Source: Microbacteriaceae bacterium
Lineage (GTDB): Bacteria; Actinomycetota; Actinomycetes; Actinomycetales; Microbacteriaceae
Direction of reading: 5' to 3'
Length of the DNA: 64,000 nucleotides
NCBI GenBank assembly: GCA_014377425.1
Contig: JACMPQ010000025.1
Span: forward strand, 1 to 64,000
This document shows, in pieces, positions 23,117-33,709 of the stretch. The stretch's first letter is position 1. Each line of letters opens with the position of its first letter. Position numbers and translations under genes: made by a program. Below the pieces are notes generated by a model, which worked only from the letters and a program-made list of their open reading frames with translations, was not told the origin of the DNA and did not search any database.

Positions 23117-23193
23117 CCCTTCGCGTAGTCCTCGGGAACATTCCTCAGTTTCCGGTTTACACAGCAGTAATCCTGAAAAGAAAGTGAAATCAC

Positions 23194-25150: not shown

Positions 25151-25209
25151 TTGACAGCTGCGCGAGCGGCGATGGTACGGTTAGCAGGCTAAATGTGAAC
25201 GGTCACATC
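25151..25209 (+). promoter_or_regulatory. araB promoter with LacI-type operator
   Basis: TTGACA (25151-25156), a 19-bp spacer and TACGGT (25176-25181) are followed 10 bp later by the near-palindrome AATGTGAACGGTCACATC (25192-25209). The operator would cover the transcription start, the usual arrangement for repression. The same architecture appears before the second importer at 29396-29453. Confidence 0.7.
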
Positions 25210-25252
25210 ATCCGGTCGGCTCGACCTAGCGCGTTCGACGAGGAAGTCGCCC

Positions 25253-27016
25253 ATGACGAATTCAGCCACACCCGCCGCGCCCGTACTGCGACCCGGTGAC
25301 CAATTTGTGATCGGCGTGGACTACGGCACGCTCTCGGGTCGTGCGCTGGTGGTGCGGGTGTCTGACGGCGCGGAAATTGCCAGCGCCAGCCACGATTATC
25401 CGCACGGCGTAATGGACACCATGCTGGCGGCATCCGGAGAAACGCTGCCGCCGGAGTGGGCGCTGCAAGTTCCGGCCGACTACGTTTCGGTGCTGAAGAC
25501 CGCGGTGCCCGAAGCCATTGCCCTCGCCGGCATCGACCCCGCCCAGGTGATCGGTATCGGCACAGACTTCACCGCGTCGACGCCCATGCCGGTGCTCGCC
25601 GACGGCACGCCGCTGAACGAGGTGCCCGGGTGTGAAACCCGCCCGCACGCCTACGTGAAACTGTGGAAGCACCACGCTGCCCAGTCGCAGGCCGATCGCA
25701 TTAACGTGTTGGCCGTCGATCTCGGCGAGAGTTGGCTGCCGCGCTACGGCGGGCTCATCTCCAGCGAATGGGAATTCGCTAAGGGCCTGCAGCTGCTCGA
25801 GGAAGACCCGGAGCTCTACGCGCTAACCGATCACTGGGTGGAAGCCGCCGACTGGATCGTCTGGCAGCTCACCGGGCGCTATGTACGCAACGCCTGCACG
25901 GCCGGCTATAAGGGAATCTGGCAAGACGGCAAATACCCCTCCGCCGACTTTCTCGCGGCCCTCAACCCCGACTTCGCCCGCTTCGCCATCGATAAGGTCG
26001 AGCATCAAATCGGCCAACTGGGGGATGCCGCGGGCACCCTCACCGCAGAGGCCGCGGCCTGGACCGGACTGCCCGAGGGCATCGCGGTGGCCGTTGGCAA
26101 CGTCGACGCGCATGTCACCGCTCCGGCGGCCGGGGCCGTGGAACCCGGCCAGATGCTCGCCATCATGGGAACCTCCACCTGCCACGTGATGAACTCGGAG
26201 GTGCTGCGCGAGGTGCCCGGCATGTGCGGGGTCGTCGACGGTGGCATCGTCTCCGGGCTCTACGGCTACGAGGCCGGGCAGTCCGGCGTCGGCGATATCT
26301 TCGCCTGGTACGTAAAGAACCAGGTGCCGCCGCGCTACTTTGAGGCGGCGCTGAGCGCGGGCCTCAGCATCCACGAATACCTCACCTCGCTTATTGAGCA
26401 CCAACCGGTCGGTGGCCACGGGCTCGTCGCCCTCGACTGGCACAGCGGCAACCGCTCAGTGCTGGTCGATCACGAGCTCAGCGGTGTCGTATTCGGCAGT
26501 ACCCTCACCACCCGCCCGGAGGAAATCTATCGGGCACTCTTCGAGGCCACCGCGTTCGGCACCCGCGTGATCGTCGAAACCTTCGGCGCAAGCGGAGTGC
26601 CGGTGACCGAATTCATCGTCGCCGGCGGGCTCCTTCGCAACACCTTCCTCATGCAGACCTACAGTGACGTGCTGCGAATGCCGATCTCCACGATTGTCAG
26701 CGACCAGGGCCCCGCGCTCGGTTCGGCCATTCACGCGGCGGTCGCCGCCAGGGCGTATCCGGATGTGCGCGCGGCGGGCCAGGTGATGGGCAAGGTCAAC
26801 CGTGCTCAGTACACCCCGAACGCGGCATCCGCGGATGCCTACGACCTGCTGTTCGCCGAGTACACGCTCTTGCACGACTACTTTGGCCGCGGCGGCAACG
26901 ACGTGATGCACCGACTGAAAGCGCTCAAGCGCGACGCGCTGACCGCAGCCCCCGCTGCGTCCGCGCCATCAGCAATTGGAACCCCCAGCACCGATGGCGA
27001 AGGAGCCACGATATGA
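25253..27016 (+). CDS. araB: Ribulokinase
   Basis: Phosphorylates L-ribulose to L-ribulose 5-phosphate. 587 aa, FGGY kinase family. The N-terminal VIGVDYGTLSGRALVV is the typical ribulokinase nucleotide-binding beginning, with GIGTDFTASTPMPV, the CETRPHAYVKLWKHHAAQ active-site stretch and AGGLLRNTFLMQTYSDVL near the C-terminus. An Ala/Ser-rich tail follows the domain. First gene of araB-araD-araA; its stop overlaps the araD start (ATGA). Confidence 0.95.
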   Translation: MTNSATPAAPVLRPGDQFVIGVDYGTLSGRALVVRVSDGAEIASASHDYPHGVMDTMLAASGETLPPEWALQVPADYVSVLKTAVPEAIALAGIDPAQVIGIGTDFTASTPMPVLADGTPLNEVPGCETRPHAYVKLWKHHAAQSQADRINVLAVDLGESWLPRYGGLISSEWEFAKGLQLLEEDPELYALTDHWVEAADWIVWQLTGRYVRNACTAGYKGIWQDGKYPSADFLAALNPDFARFAIDKVEHQIGQLGDAAGTLTAEAAAWTGLPEGIAVAVGNVDAHVTAPAAGAVEPGQMLAIMGTSTCHVMNSEVLREVPGMCGVVDGGIVSGLYGYEAGQSGVGDIFAWYVKNQVPPRYFEAALSAGLSIHEYLTSLIEHQPVGGHGLVALDWHSGNRSVLVDHELSGVVFGSTLTTRPEEIYRALFEATAFGTRVIVETFGASGVPVTEFIVAGGLLRNTFLMQTYSDVLRMPISTIVSDQGPALGSAIHAAVAARAYPDVRAAGQVMGKVNRAQYTPNAASADAYDLLFAEYTLLHDYFGRGGNDVMHRLKALKRDALTAAPAASAPSAIGTPSTDGEGATI

Positions 27017-27798
27017 GCCTCGGCGAGGACATCCTGCGCGTGCGTCGAGACGTCGCCAAGCTGCACGAACAGCTCACCCGCTACTCGCTGGTGATCTGGA
27101 CCGGCGGCAATATCTCAGGGCGCGTGCCCGGTGCCGATTTGTTCGTGATCAAGCCGAGCGGGGTCGAGTACGACGACCTCACCCCCGACAATATGATTCT
27201 CTGTGACCTCGACGGAGTGGTGATTCCCGGTTCCGAGGGCAGCGAGCGGAGCCCATCGAGCGACACGGCAGCCCACGCCTACGTGTACCGCAACATGCCG
27301 CACGTGGCCGGGGTCGTGCACACCCACTCCAGCTACGCCACGGCGTGGGCGGCGCGCGGCGAAGCTATTCCCTGCGTCATTACCGGGCAGGCCGACGAAT
27401 TCGGCGGCGAAATTCCGGTGGGGCCCTTCGCGATCATCGGTGATGAGTCGATTGGTAAGGCAATCGTCGAGACCCTCAGCGGGCATCGCTCCCGGGCGGT
27501 GTTGATGCAAAACCACGGTGTCTTCACCATCGGTTCGAGCCCACGAGATGCCGTCAAGGCCGCCGTCATGGCTGAGGATGTTGCGCGCACGGTGCACCTC
27601 TCCCTGCAACTCGGTACGCCCATCCCGATTCCGCAAGACAAGATCGACGCCCTCTTCAACCGCTACCAAAATGTCTACGGTCAGGGCGCGGACCCCGCCA
27701 CCGATACCGATTCCCAGGCCGACTCCGCGACCGACGCTGTGACCGGCGCTGCTGCCGGCCAAACCGACCCCACGAACCCCTCAGGAGTAACCGCATGA
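27013..27798 (+). CDS. araD: L-ribulose-5-phosphate 4-epimerase
   Basis: Converts L-ribulose 5-phosphate to D-xylulose 5-phosphate, feeding the pentose phosphate pathway. 261 aa, class II aldolase/adducin fold. The start of the fold reads [17 protein letters not shown], the zinc ligands are in [13 protein letters not shown], and a further His lies in [12 protein letters not shown]. The C-terminal ~35 residues are an Asp/Ala/Thr-rich tail not seen in enteric AraD. Overlaps araB and araA by 4 bp each, giving tight coupling. Confidence 0.93.
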
Positions 27799-29315
27799 CC
27801 CGCTCGATCATCCCCACCCTCACCGATTACGAAGTCTGGTTTGTCACCGGCAGCCAGAACCTGTATGGCGAAGAGACCCTGCGGCAGGTGGCCGAGCAGT
27901 CGCAGGAGATTGCCCGCGCGCTGGGCGAGGCAAACGACATCCCGGTTACGGTCAAGTGGATACCGGTGCTGAAGGATTCCGAATCGATTCGGCGTCTGGC
28001 CCTCGACGCCAATGCGCAAGACAATGTGGTCGGCATCATTGCCTGGATGCATACCTTCAGCCCGGCGAAGATGTGGATTACCGGGCTCGACCTGCTGCGC
28101 AAGCCCCTGTTGCACCTGCATACTCAGGCGAACGTGGCGCTTCCCTGGTCCGAGATCGACTTCGACTTCATGAACCTCAACCAGGCCGCCCACGGCGACC
28201 GGGAGTTTGGCTACATCCAGACGCGACTCGGGGTTGCCCGCAAGACCGTGGTGGGCCACGTCTCGAACCCCGCCGTAACGGCGAAGGTCGGCACCTGGAC
28301 GCGGGCCGCGGCCGGCTGGGCCGCGGTGCACGAGCTGAAGCTTGCCCGCTTTGGCGACAACATGCGCTTTGTGGCGGTGACCGAGGGGGATAAGACCGAG
28401 GCCGAGTTGCAGTTCGGCGTGCAGGTCAACACCTGGGGCGTGAATGACCTCGTGGAGGTCGTCGACGCTCAGACCGAGGCCGACATTGATTCGCTCGTCG
28501 CGGAATATGAGGAGCGGTACTCGGTGGTGCCGCAACTTCGCCGCGGGGGCGACCGTGCGGAGTCGTTGCGCTACGGCGCACGCATCGAGCTGGGGCTGCG
28601 CTCCTTTCTGGAGGCCGGCAACTTTGGTGCGTTCACGACGAGCTTCGAAGACCTCGGCGGCCTCCGCCAGCTGCCCGGGCTTGCCGTGCAGCGGCTGATG
28701 GCCGACGGCTACGGCTTCGGCGCCGAGGGTGACTGGAAGACCGCGCTTCTGGTGCGTGCCGCCAAGGTAATGGGTGCTGGCCTGCCCGGTGGGGCTTCCC
28801 TGATGGAGGACTACACCTATCACCTAGAGCCCGGCAATGAACTTATTCTCGGCGCGCACATGCTCGAGGTCTGCCCCTCTCTCACCACGGCAAAGCCGAC
28901 CCTCGAAGTGCATCCGCTCGGTATCGGCGGTCGTGAAGACCCGGTGCGCCTGGTGTTCGACACGGATGCCGGACCCGCTGTCGTGGTCGCCCTCAGTGAC
29001 ATGCGCGACCGTTTTCGACTGGTTGCCAACGTGGTGGAGGTCGTGCCGCTGCCCGAGCCGCTCCCGAAGCTGCCGGTGGCCCGCGCAGTCTGGAAGCCGC
29101 AGCCCGACTTCGCCACGAGTGCCGCGGCTTGGCTCACCGCGGGGGCAGCCCACCACACAGTGATGTCGACCGCCGTGGGCATCGACGTGTTCGAGGACTT
29201 CGCCGAGATCGCCAAGAACGAGCTCGTGGTCATCGACGAGAACACGACGCTGCGCGAGTTCGCCCGGGAGTTGCGTTGGAACCAGGCCTACTACCGACTG
29301 GCGCGCGGACTGTAG
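27795..29315 (+). CDS. araA: L-arabinose isomerase
   Basis: Isomerises L-arabinose to L-ribulose using a divalent metal. 506 aa, the usual length. The N-terminus [19 protein letters not shown] is diagnostic, together with [27 protein letters not shown] and the metal-binding Glu/His residues in the later [29 protein letters not shown]. Last gene of the araBDA operon, followed by a perfect 13-bp hairpin. Confidence 0.97.
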
Positions 29316-29329
29316 GCACTCTGCCCTAC

Positions 29330-29365
29330 CTCAACCCCGGCAGCTGCGAATGTGCCGGGGTTGAG
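29330..29365 (+). terminator. Hairpin after araA
   Basis: CTCAACCCCGGCA (29330-29342) is perfectly complementary to TGCCGGGGTTGAG (29353-29365). No T-run follows, so it may be a GC-type terminator, common in actinobacteria, or an mRNA end-stabiliser. Confidence 0.65.
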
Positions 29366-29395
29366 TGAGCGTTACCGAACCGAGAGCCGGTCGCC

Positions 29396-29453
29396 TTGAC
29401 AGCAGGGCCGGTCACCTTGGTAGGGTGGGAAAAACAATGTGAACGGTCACATT
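29396..29453 (+). promoter_or_regulatory. Promoter with LacI-type operator before the second importer
   Basis: TTGACA (29396-29401), a 19-bp spacer and TAGGGT (29421-29426) are followed by AATGTGAACGGTCACATT (29436-29453), which is palindromic in 8 of 9 base pairs. The sequence and spacing match the araB promoter, so the second importer and araBDA probably share one regulator. Confidence 0.7.
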
Positions 29454-29511
29454 ACATGACCCAGTTCCGCTGCTCATGATCAACCGCACTCCCCTGACAA
29501 AGAGGTCACCT

Positions 29512-29754
29512 GTGAAACTCCGCTACCGCTTTCGCGCCAGTAGCTCTTCCGCGTGCCCTCCCGCGATGACCACCTCCTCCCACCGGGCTTGGAGCGAGCG
29601 AACCGTAACGTCGCCCGAACACCCCCTACTTCCCGATTTGATGCAATTTGCATCGAGACGGATAAGAGACGCAGCCTTCGTGGGCTGGGCTGCGTCAGCA
29701 CCACCTGCCGACAAAGATGTCCACAGCAAAATCGAGAGGAACTTTTCACAGTGA
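29512..29754 (+). CDS. Possible leader ORF before the second sugar-binding protein
   Basis: An 80-codon frame starts at GTG 29512, 6 bp after AGAGG, and ends by a GTGA overlap with the binding-protein start at 29751. The encoded peptide is basic and Ser-rich with no recognisable domain. The spacing at both ends suggests translation and coupling, but composition is not strongly protein-like, so it may be chance. The transcript here also contains a perfect GATGCAA-T-TTGCATC palindrome (29640-29654) and a 9-bp stem GACGCAGCC / GGCTGCGTC (29668-29696). Confidence 0.3.
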
Positions 29755-30869
29755 AGTCGAAAACAGTATTTGCGGTTATTGCCGCCGGGGCTCTCGTAGC
29801 CTCACTCGCCGCGTGCTCCAGCGCTCGCACCCCCGACGCCGCAGCATCGGCCGGCACCAGCAACAAGGGCGCCCTCGTGGGAATCGCCATGCCGACCCAG
29901 ACCTCCGAGCGTTGGATCAAGGACGGCGCCGCCATCAAGAAGGACCTCGAAGCCCTCGGTTACAAGACCGACCTCGAGTACGCCAACAACGACATCCCCA
30001 CCCAGGTGCAGCAGATCTCCACCATGATCACCAAGGGCGCAAAGGTCTTGGTCATCGCCTCGATCGACGGCACCGCGTTGAGCACCCAGCTTGACAACGC
30101 CGCCGCCGCTGGCATCAAGGTTGTCGCCTACGACCGCCTGATCAACGGCAACAAGAACGTTGACTACTACACCACCTTCGACAACTACAAGGTCGGCGTG
30201 CAGCAGGCAACCTCGCTGTTGACCGGCCTCGGAATCCTCGATGACAGCGGCAAGGAGACCGGAAAGACCGGCCCCTTCAACGTCGAGCTGTTCGCCGGTA
30301 GCCCGGATGACAACAACGCCACATTCTTCTACAACGGTGCCATTGACACCCTGAAGAAGTACATCGACAGCAAGGTCGTCGTTGTGCAGAGCGGCCAGAC
30401 CGACTTCAAGACGGTAGCCACCCTGCGCTGGGACCCGGCCACCGCCCAGAAGCGCATGCAGGACCTGCTCGCCAAGAGCTACTCCGCAGGCACCAAGGTC
30501 AATGGCGTTCTGTCACCCTACGATGGCATCTCCATCGGAATCATCTCCGCTCTGACCGCGGCCGGTTACGCCCCCACGGCGCTGCCGACCATCACCGGCC
30601 AGGACGCCGAGCTCGGATCGGTCAAGTCGATCATCGCCGGACAGCAGTATTCGACGATCTACAAGGACACCCGCAACCTCGGCAAGCAGGCCGTCAAGAT
30701 GGTTGACGGAATGCTCACCGGTGCCAAGGTAGACACCAACTCCACCGACTACAACAACGGCAAGAAGGTCGTTCCGACCTTCCTCCTGCAGTCGGAGGTC
30801 GTCACCAAGGCCAACGTCCAGAAGATTCTGGTCGACGGCGGTTACTACACGGCGGACCAGCTCAAGTAA
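29751..30869 (+). CDS. ChvE-like sugar-binding lipoprotein (second importer)
   Basis: About 372 aa. The GTG at 29751 is chosen because GAGAGGA precedes it and a signal peptide follows at once, ending in the lipobox SLAAC. The mature part ([77 protein letters not shown]) is of the ChvE type. The gene lies under the same operator type as araB, so L-arabinose is the leading substrate candidate. It is paralogous to the protein encoded at 23194. Confidence 0.92.
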
Positions 30870-30892
30870 CACGGTCTCACCGGTCAGGACTA

Positions 30893-30932
30893 ACGGATGC
30901 TGGCGGCTCGGTTTCGCGCCGCCAGCATCCGT
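30893..30932 (+). repeat. Perfect 15-bp intercistronic hairpin
   Basis: ACGGATGCTGGCGGC (30893-30907) pairs perfectly with GCCGCCAGCATCCGT (30918-30932). It lies between the binding-protein and ATPase genes without a T-run. Such hairpins often protect the upstream mRNA and partly terminate, giving more binding protein than membrane components. Confidence 0.75.
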
Positions 30933-30963
30933 CTCGTTCATAAAGAATGAAAGCGAGTGGCAG

Positions 30964-32493
30964 ATGACCACCAATATTCTCGAAATGAGAAGCATTACCA
31001 AGACTTTTCCCGGGGTGAAGGCCCTGCAAGAGGTGAGCCTCGGAGTGCGTCGCGGTGAGGTTCACGCCATCTGTGGCGAGAACGGTGCCGGGAAATCCAC
31101 CCTCATGAAGGTGCTGTCTGGGGTATACCCTGCCGGCTCCTACGACGGCGAGATCTACTTCGAGAACGAGTTGGTGGAGTTTAAGAACATCAACGACTCC
31201 GAAGCTGTTGGCGTTGTCATCATCCATCAAGAACTCGCTCTAAGCCCCTTTCTGTCGATCGCCGAGAACATCTTTCTGGGCAACGAGCGCCAGAAAAACG
31301 GCTGGATCGACTGGAACGCCACCAACCTTGAGGCCGCAAAGCTACTGGCCCGGGTCGGTTTGAAAGACAACCCCATTACCAAGATCACCGAGATCGGCGT
31401 CGGAAAGCAGCAGTTAGTGGAGATCGCGAAGGCACTCTCCAAGCGCGTGAAACTGCTGATTCTCGACGAGCCGACCGCCGCCCTCAACGATGAGGACTCC
31501 GCTCACCTGCTCGACCTGCTCCTGCACCTCAAGAGCCAGGGCATCACCTCTATCATCATCTCGCACAAGCTCAACGAAATTAAACGTATCGCCGACTCGG
31601 TCACCATCATCCGCGACGGCAAAACGGTCGAAACGCTCGATATGGCCAAGGATGAAATCTCCGAGGAGCGCATCATCAAGGGGATGGTCGGTCGCGACCT
31701 CGAGAACCGCTATCCGCACCACACCCCTGACATCGGCGCGGAGGTTCTGCGGGTGGAGGACTGGACAGTGCATCACCCCACCGACCACTCGCGCGTGGTC
31801 ATCCACGGTGCCAATATCAACGTACGTCGCGGCGAAATCGTCGGAATCGCGGGACTCATGGGTGCCGGTCGCACGGAGCTCGCCATGAGTGTGTTCGGCC
31901 GCACCTACGGCCACAATATTTCCGGTCGTATTTATAAAGACGGCGTCGAAATTCAGACGCGCAGCGTTTCGGAGGCCATCGGTCACGGCATCGCCTACGC
32001 CACCGAGGATCGCAAACGCTACGGGCTCAACCTCATCGACGACATCAAGCGCAACATCTCCGGCTCCGCCCTCGGCAAGCTCGCCAAGCGCGGCTGGGTC
32101 GACGCCAACCAGGAATACGCCGTGGCCGAGGGTTACCGCAAGAGCATGAACATCAAATCGCCGACCGTGGGCGCCATCACCGGTAAACTCTCGGGCGGCA
32201 ACCAGCAAAAAGTAGTGCTGAGCAAATGGATGTTTGCCGACCCCGACGTGCTGATTCTGGATGAACCCACCCGCGGCATCGACGTCGGCGCCAAGTATGA
32301 GATCTACACGATCATCAACACGCTCGCCGGACAGGGCAAAGGAGTGATCGTGATCTCCTCCGAGCTTCCCGAGCTGCTCGGAATCTGCGACCGTATTTAT
32401 ACGCTCTCGGAGGGAACGATCACCGCCGATATTCCCCGCGATAAAGCGACCCCCGAACTTCTCATGCAGTACATGACCCAGGAACAGGACTGA
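30964..32493 (+). CDS. Sugar ABC transporter ATPase (GguA/MmsA-like, second importer)
   Basis: A 509-aa tandem ATPase. Domain one has [26 protein letters not shown] and [12 protein letters not shown]; domain two has [26 protein letters not shown] and [12 protein letters not shown]. It is closely paralogous to the protein at 20199. AAAGCGAGTGGCAG precedes the ATG. The permease follows 7 bp after its stop. Confidence 0.93.
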
Positions 32494-32500
32494 GCCCGCC

Positions 32501-33709
32501 ATGAGCGCTCCCGTTACGCCCGTCGCCCACAATCCCATCGGTCGGGCCGCCAACTATCTCACCAGTCAGCTGCGCCAGATCGGTATCTTTATCGCGCTGA
32601 TCGTGATCGTGGTGTTGTTTCAGATTCTCACCCAGGGTGTGTTGCTGAACCCGCAAAACGTGTCCAACGTGATCGTGCAAAACAGCTACGTGCTGATTCT
32701 GGCCATCGGCATGGTGATGATCATCATCGCCGGACACATCGACCTTTCGGTCGGGTCGGTGGTCGGGTTCATCGGCGCTATCGCCGGAGTGCTTACCAAC
32801 CGCATGGGTCTGCCCTGGTGGCTCGCCATCATCGCGGCCCTCCTCGCCGGCGTTTTGGTGGGCGCGTGGCAGGGCTTCTGGGTCGCCTACTTTGGCATCC
32901 CCGCGTTCATCGTGACCCTCGCCGGTATGCTAATTTTCCGCGGCCTCACGCAGGTCGTGCTCGGCAGCACCCAGATCACTCCGTTCCCCGATGAAATGCG
33001 TGCGCTCGGTGGCGGTTTCCTGCCAACCCTTGGTTTTCTTGGTGGGCAGTACGAAACCCTCACCGTGGTCATCGGTCTGCTGGCTGCCGCTGTTCTCGTG
33101 GCTGCCGGCATCCGTCAGCGCCTGATTCGCCGCCGCCTCAACCTCGAAGACGAGCCCTTCGCCTGGTTCGTGGTGAAGCTCGCCTTCACCGCAGCGCTCG
33201 TGCTGGCCATCGCGTTCCTGCTCGCGAGCTACCGCGGCACCCCGATCGTGCTGGTTGTACTTGGCCTGTTGGTGGTCGTTTACTCCGCAGTCATGGGCCG
33301 CAGCGTTTACGGGCGCCACATCTACGCCCTCGGCGGCAACCTCAACGCGGCGCTGCTCTCCGGCGTCAAGACCAAGCGGGTGACCTTCCTGCTGTTCGTC
33401 AACATGGGGGTGCTTGCAGCACTCGCCGGACTCGTCTTTGCCGGCCAGCTGAATCTCGCCAACCCCACCAACGGCACCGGCTTTGAACTGGATGCCATCG
33501 CCGCCGCCTTCATCGGGGGAGCCGCCGTTACCGGAGGCATCGGTACCGTTACCGGCGCCATCATCGGTGGTCTGATCATCGGAATCCTCAACAACGGAAT
33601 GTCGATTATCGGGGTCGGGACCGACTGGCAGCAGTTCATCAAGGGCATCGTGCTGCTTTCGGCAGTGGCCTTCGACGTGTACAACAAGCGCCGCTCCGGC
33701 GGTCGTTGA
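32501..33709 (+). CDS. Sugar ABC transporter permease (GguB/MmsB-like, second importer)
   Basis: A 402-aa CUT2 permease with ten or so membrane segments. Conserved segments [37 protein letters not shown] and FELDAIAAAFIGGAAVTGGIGT align with the permease at 21764. It lacks the long polar tail of that paralogue. Last gene of the second importer; a long terminator follows. Confidence 0.93.
   Translation: MSAPVTPVAHNPIGRAANYLTSQLRQIGIFIALIVIVVLFQILTQGVLLNPQNVSNVIVQNSYVLILAIGMVMIIIAGHIDLSVGSVVGFIGAIAGVLTNRMGLPWWLAIIAALLAGVLVGAWQGFWVAYFGIPAFIVTLAGMLIFRGLTQVVLGSTQITPFPDEMRALGGGFLPTLGFLGGQYETLTVVIGLLAAAVLVAAGIRQRLIRRRLNLEDEPFAWFVVKLAFTAALVLAIAFLLASYRGTPIVLVVLGLLVVVYSAVMGRSVYGRHIYALGGNLNAALLSGVKTKRVTFLLFVNMGVLAALAGLVFAGQLNLANPTNGTGFELDAIAAAFIGGAAVTGGIGTVTGAIIGGLIIGILNNGMSIIGVGTDWQQFIKGIVLLSAVAFDVYNKRRSGGR

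Follow-up and report, generated by a model that had tools for sequence, protein, structure and literature searches.

Why does chvE, the gene of a multiple monosaccharide-binding lipoprotein, begin some 300 nt downstream of an operator, and does the sequence in between help to set its expression? In the stretch analyzed here (the window, 64,000 nt in all), chvE and two ggu genes follow an arabinose gene cluster. The original prediction described a long structured leader before chvE, possibly with a coupled leader peptide, that may add post-transcriptional control. The features of the region are as follows.

25253-29315: araBDA, upstream of the chvE operator
29330-29365: perfect 13-bp hairpin directly 3' of araA, terminator-like in appearance, not called as a terminator
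29396-29401, + strand: candidate -35 hexamer TTGACA, 36 nt 5' of the chvE operator
29438-29451: operator TGTGAACGGTCACA of the chvE leader, with an identical copy before araB at 25194-25207
29495-29508, + strand: TGACAAAGAGGTCA motif (GAC-N6-GTC), containing a Shine-Dalgarno-like stretch
29512-29754, + strand: 80-codon frame overlapping the chvE start at GTGA, unlikely to be a gene
29640-29654: perfect 15-bp palindrome GATGCAATTTGCATC
29734-29739, + strand: Shine-Dalgarno sequence GAGAGG of chvE
29751-30869, + strand: chvE (NCBIfam NF040907, 497.8 bits against a cut-off of 460)
29751-33709: chvE-gguA-gguB, preceded by the operator and the ~300-nt leader; gguA, then gguB, lie downstream of chvE (NF040905 for GguA and NF040906 for GguB, both above cut-off)

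The predicted geometry is borne out: the operator lies 299 nt before the GTG start codon at 29751. The 2.42-Mb draft genome has exactly two sites for TGTGAACGGTCACA at one mismatch or fewer, one upstream of araB and the other upstream of chvE. The araB region has a similar TTGACA arrangement (25151-25156), and because at each of the two genes this hexamer precedes the operator by 36-37 nt, a long chvE transcript starting near the operator is likely, judging from the sequence. A promoter consensus scan around the candidate -35 hexamer found no full sigma-70 match, and no + strand site resembling an intrinsic terminator or attenuator (GC stem plus T run) was found in 29280-29900. The operator shares a TGTGA-NCGN-TCACA core with the LacI-type AraQ/MalR1 operators of bifidobacteria, given as CATTGTGAGC-GCTCACATCA in the accessible text of PMC6882875. 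Those operators concern the promoter and not a leader RNA, and the cognate repressor here is only presumed; we infer that a repressor of the arabinose type acts at the chvE operator. Within 75 nt after the operator, a GAC-N6-GTC motif is present in 22 of 35 operator-bearing loci (mean of 0.64 and maximum of 4 in mononucleotide shuffles). Between the operator and the hairpin, only 21 nt at this motif can be aligned (E 0.001) with the leader of L083, the closest relative found, whose ChvE is 88% and whose chvE DNA is 85% identical. At araB (25194-25248), GACGAGGAAGTC lies just 5' of the ATG, in a GAC-N6-GTC layout matching the start of the chvE leader.

The other features reported for the leader are likewise in place: a frame running from GTG at 29512 to TGA at 29752-29754, with AAAGAGG upstream and its stop overlapping the chvE start (29751-29753) as GTGA; the palindrome; and a 9-bp stem at 29668-29696 with an 11-nt loop. 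We assessed chance levels with 2,000 dinucleotide shuffles of 29454-29750. An opening of 80 codons or more, in whichever of the three forward frames, was found in 772 of them, and a palindrome with 7-bp arms and a loop of at most 3 nt in 116; the 64-kb window holds 42 such arm pairs, some of them nested. A perfect 9-bp stem with a loop of at most 15 nt arose in 31. Of the leader's frame, palindrome, and stem, the 9-bp stem alone is exceptional, and it is conservation in relatives that gives it weight. The suggestion that the leader holds more structure than an ordinary untranslated region needs survives for the stem, which is rarer by chance and conserved, and not for the palindrome, which is ordinary and absent from the L083 leader, where there is no 7-bp palindrome at all. 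As a candidate operator the palindrome was rejected: at two mismatches or fewer the genome holds three copies of it, two being imperfect. The leader as a whole is predicted to fold moderately more strongly than shuffles (z of -2.2), while the 89-nt window element alone folds no better than its shuffles (z of -0.6). A perfect 8-nt complementarity, CTGTGAAA at 29510-29517 and TTTCACAG at 29744-29751, joins the start of the leader frame to that of chvE and is paired in the predicted leader fold.

As first proposed, the frame (29512-29754) could encode a leader peptide whose translation is coupled to that of chvE by the GTGA overlap. Its Shine-Dalgarno sequence and start codon are both in place, its own frame (29512-29751) is open in just 360 of 4,000 shuffles, and six Leifsonia-type leaders (L048, L049, L067, L105, L110, and L111) carry a 47- to 49-codon frame at the equal position with a GTGA overlap onto chvE. 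However, the frame lacks coding composition: its GC content by codon position is 0.55/0.59/0.64, whereas the third position reaches 0.78 to 0.86 in four neighboring genes, and this strong bias is also missing from the Leifsonia frames. Pfam and NCBIfam gave no match to it, in L083 the coupled frame stays open for just 6 codons, and the Microbacterium and Amnibacterium loci have no start codon after the Shine-Dalgarno-like motif. Thus, neither the relatives nor the composition revealed a coding frame conserved under selection at 29512-29754. We consider the coupled peptide quite improbable, if slightly less so because its own frame is open in 9%, not 39%, of shuffles; coupling may occur in the Leifsonia-type leaders. 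As a warning, a leader frame counts for little on its own where the DNA is GC-rich.

The conserved part of the leader is instead a compact element around the 9-bp stem, made up in the window as follows.

29668-29676, + strand: 5' arm GACGCAGCC of the hairpin stem, P2
29680-29685, + strand: GTGGGC in the loop, proposed as the 5' strand of a pseudoknot helix and able to pair with 29719-29724
29688-29696, + strand: 3' arm GGCTGCGTC of P2
29698-29724, + strand: conserved GCACCAC linker and GACAAAGATGTCCAC motif
29719-29724, + strand: GTCCAC, within the GACAAAGATGTCCAC motif region, proposed as the 3' strand of the pseudoknot helix

The window copy thus reads GACGCAGCC, TTCGTGGGCTG, GGCTGCGTC, GCACCAC, GACAAAGATGTCCAC, and GAGAGG. 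Upstream regions of many, though not all, ChvE relatives show the same order, with a hairpin of variable stem, the loop ATGGACG, a linker that is often GCACCAC, the motif GACAAYGAYGTCCAT, and a Shine-Dalgarno sequence. Where the loop is usually ATGGACG and its pairing motif GTCCAT, the window has GTGGGC and GTCCAC, which form six pairs including one G-U (-7.5 kcal/mol as a duplex). The 3' strand of this helix ends 9 nt before the Shine-Dalgarno sequence and 26 nt before the start codon. There are exceptions to the pattern: L003/L085 has the hairpin and no motif, genus g8 has the motif before chvE and no hairpin, and L083 needs a different hairpin register. Reading the loop as a start codon (ATG, GTG, or TTG in most rows) was rejected, as the frames, inspected by eye, differ in length.

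That the hairpin is real is nearly certain. In an alignment of 51 elements fitted to the hairpin (A2), all nine P2 pairs change on both sides. Independently of any alignment, the mean pairing energy is -15.4 kcal/mol for own arms and -10.0 for swapped arms, and none of 10,000 permutations is as good (48 of the 51 rows). The own 3' arm ranks first in just 10 of those 48 rows because relatives share arms, and RNAalifold predicted no pair on A2. The conservation called for by the original prediction is found for the stem, which covaries, and not for the frame and palindrome, which are respectively broken and absent in the nearest relative, L083.

Pairing of the loop with the downstream motif into an H-type pseudoknot is likely from the sequence comparisons, with statistics that are no more than suggestive. 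The helix is paired in 83.7% of cells, compared with 79.5% in shuffles (none of 500 reach the observed value), and its covariation score is 0.144 against 0.100 (1 of 500). One pair appears as UA, UG, AU, GU, CG, and GC. With the register fixed, own loops and motifs score 6.10 and crossed ones 5.87, a difference matched in 52 of 10,000 permutations, or in 113 of 10,000 on the 38 distinct combinations, kinship being uncorrected in both figures. Loop and motif change together in L009 (GTACG with CGTAC), L087 (TTGGGCG with CGTCCAA), L288 (AGGACG with CGTCCT), L302 (CGGACG with CGTCCG), and the window (GTGGGC with GTCCAC). Since the GGAC:GTCC core is nearly invariant, the covariation depends on the end pairs, and the outermost of these does not form in 26 of 50 rows. 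At least as many pairs with double changes arise in 331 of 500 shuffles. When the 3' strand is shifted by +2 columns, there are 15 double-change cells compared with 12 and 13 pair types compared with 12, though just 40.1% of cells pair and the score is 0.092.

How closely the element follows chvE was assessed with two search models. The first, R1, was built on alignment A1 (24 of 32 trimmed elements); since it includes the Shine-Dalgarno sequence, its weak matches can be any start site. At E ≤0.1, it matches in 185 of 398 genomes of the window's family (f1, presumably Microbacteriaceae, given identical loci in named genomes), and 20 regions taken from further matches comprised 11 ChvE-type genes, 8 of another binding-protein class, and 1 coding false match. 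For the second, R2, 17 of the 51 A2 rows were left out (the window, most of genus g77, and rows that are hard to align), and A3 kept 25 of the 34 listed remaining rows, those dropped including L288 and L289 of g77 and L292 and L294 of g1. R2 covers hairpin to motif only and was trained without the window, its genus g1, genus g77, or the Shine-Dalgarno sequence. At E ≤0.01 (the E values of this search are rough), it matches in 76 of 299 family genomes. Its best 48 rows (E ≤3.1e-4) all lie before ChvE-type genes, and weaker rows include other places. In the window's own genome, R2 has a single match at E ≤0.01, at 29664-29725 (E 1.7e-5), and among the rows listed for R1 this genome likewise has no second match. 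The first binding-protein gene of the window (23194) scores below the ChvE cut-off, and the element is absent from 23117-23193. Among the five other chvE leaders of genus g1, R2 finds one, weakly (G004), and R1 matches all five, G002 over 28 nt only. At the L083 chvE leader, R2 reaches just 19.7 bits, and in the family scan its match in the source genome, G194, lies at another gene.

The element is present in the named isolates Galbitalea soli (L002) and Glaciihabitans sp. dw_435 (L019). Outside the family, R1 has weak matches in eight genomes at the order level (E 1.2e-4 to 9.7e-4), and the search of viral contigs found nothing. Three loci from Luteibacter and Rhodanobacter (L031, L032, and L034) encode ChvE relatives 66 to 67% identical to that of the window, and two have an element-like leader, those being the Rhodanobacter copies before chvE relatives (L032, 30.8 bits with R1; L034, 22.2 bits with R2). 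Their sequences suggest horizontal transfer. Two broader patterns were tried and rejected: GACRANGRNGTC as the mark of a regulon is too unspecific, the genome having 64 sites for it and 34 for its reversal, and GCACC..GACAANGANGTC occurs in 93 of 249 genomes, in some before chvE and other binding-protein genes, most of the 30 listed hits looking unrelated.

In many relatives, the element follows araA or araD, and it also lies behind operators of its own, as in the window and L083; it goes with chvE, then, and not with one promoter. The position after araA or araD is that of an intercistronic stabilizer, and the element could be a device for mRNA processing or stability, whose hairpin protects a 5' end or cleavage product and thereby yields more binding protein than araBDA products or permease, involving neither ligand nor translational control. 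A stem of free sequence with its pairing kept would suit such a role. A plain stabilizer has no need, however, of the conserved loop and linker or of a matching motif near the Shine-Dalgarno sequence, and the element also occurs behind its own operator. We regard this explanation as rather unlikely.

The GACAAYGAHGTCC motif might alternatively be a separate site at which a trans-acting RNA, a protein, or a DNA-binding regulator controls several sugar-binding-protein genes, the hairpin loop merely competing for it. Upstream of at least eight genes of an apparent second binding-protein class (L286, L290, L291, L295, L296, L299, L303, and L304; the sole product tested, that of L286, is an SBP_bac_8 protein) there is an GACAAYGAAGTCC-like motif with no clear copy of the hairpin. 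Two of these genes (L295 and L303) have ACAACGTTGT palindromes upstream, perhaps the operators of another repressor. Both this second class and the motif-only leaders of genus g8 would be expected of a separate site. The joint changes of loop and motif in the hairpin-bearing copies listed above argue against it, and the motif's place on the coding strand, adjoining the Shine-Dalgarno sequence in the copies examined, speaks against a DNA operator. We hold a separate site to be rather unlikely; it and the stability device are the strongest rivals.

The explanation we favor, to which we give somewhat better than an even chance, is that 29665-29725 is a conserved cis-acting pseudoknot RNA beneath an arabinose-type repressor, where it sets ribosome loading on chvE and probably switches. 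Our confidence is lowered by the slide control and by the weak results for L083 and genus g1. The repressor at 29438-29451 would gate transcription. In the long mRNA, the loop of the 9-bp hairpin would then pair with the downstream motif, and the resulting H-type pseudoknot, just upstream of a held 30S subunit, would set ribosome loading on chvE. According to the accessible text of PMC9410914, the 30S cleft spans about -18 to +10, and the standby step is one at which structured leaders can take effect. The pseudoknot strand, ending 26 nt before the start, would fall outside the cleft as described there (about -18), so the pseudoknot most likely acts on ribosome loading and not by hiding the Shine-Dalgarno sequence. 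We infer regulatory action on translation, a regulated switch, and a ligand; switching would probably be brought about by a bound ligand, a protein, or a partner RNA. The post-transcriptional control originally suggested thus fits the conserved, covarying stem, while its coupled leader peptide is not supported.

More specifically, the element could be a riboswitch whose ligand is a free monosaccharide or an early pentose metabolite and which, beneath the arabinose repressor, adjusts how much multiple-monosaccharide binding protein is made, a proposal we consider improbable. Sugar-sensing RNAs are, to our knowledge, rare, and an element sensing a sugar or sugar phosphate would be one of them. 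If no sugar is sensed, it would show how expression of a binding protein is set apart from that of the rest of its operon. Its proposed pseudoknot is compact, testable, and carried by named isolates.

Among known RNA families, Rfam 15 gave one match in 28800-30400 of the window at E ≤5, a sub-threshold animal microRNA match inside chvE and of no relevance. For 16 relative loci at E ≤2, one search gave four sub-threshold microRNA or snoRNA matches and a second gave none. Among the papers listed in searches of the open-access journal literature, none described an RNA of this kind. The element is thus a structured RNA without an Rfam match, tied to one transporter gene. The nearest known RNA in gene context is the msiK motif (RF01747; PMC2864571), which, like the chvE element, is an actinobacterial cis-element before a sugar ABC-transporter gene, there that of an ATPase; its long hairpin carries an 11-nt bulge, and its basal stem takes in the ribosome-binding site. 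The chvE element differs in architecture, showing neither the long bulged hairpin nor a basal stem with the ribosome-binding site. In architecture, the comparison is with the preQ1-I, SAM/SAH, and guanidine-III pseudoknot riboswitches, whose loop details are general background. What these H-type riboswitches have in common with the structure proposed for the chvE element is one hairpin with a loop that pairs to a strand farther downstream, close to the ribosome-binding site (PMC9410914). In the preQ1 riboswitch the pseudoknot strand overlaps the Shine-Dalgarno sequence, whereas in the chvE element, which has no Rfam match, it lies upstream of it.
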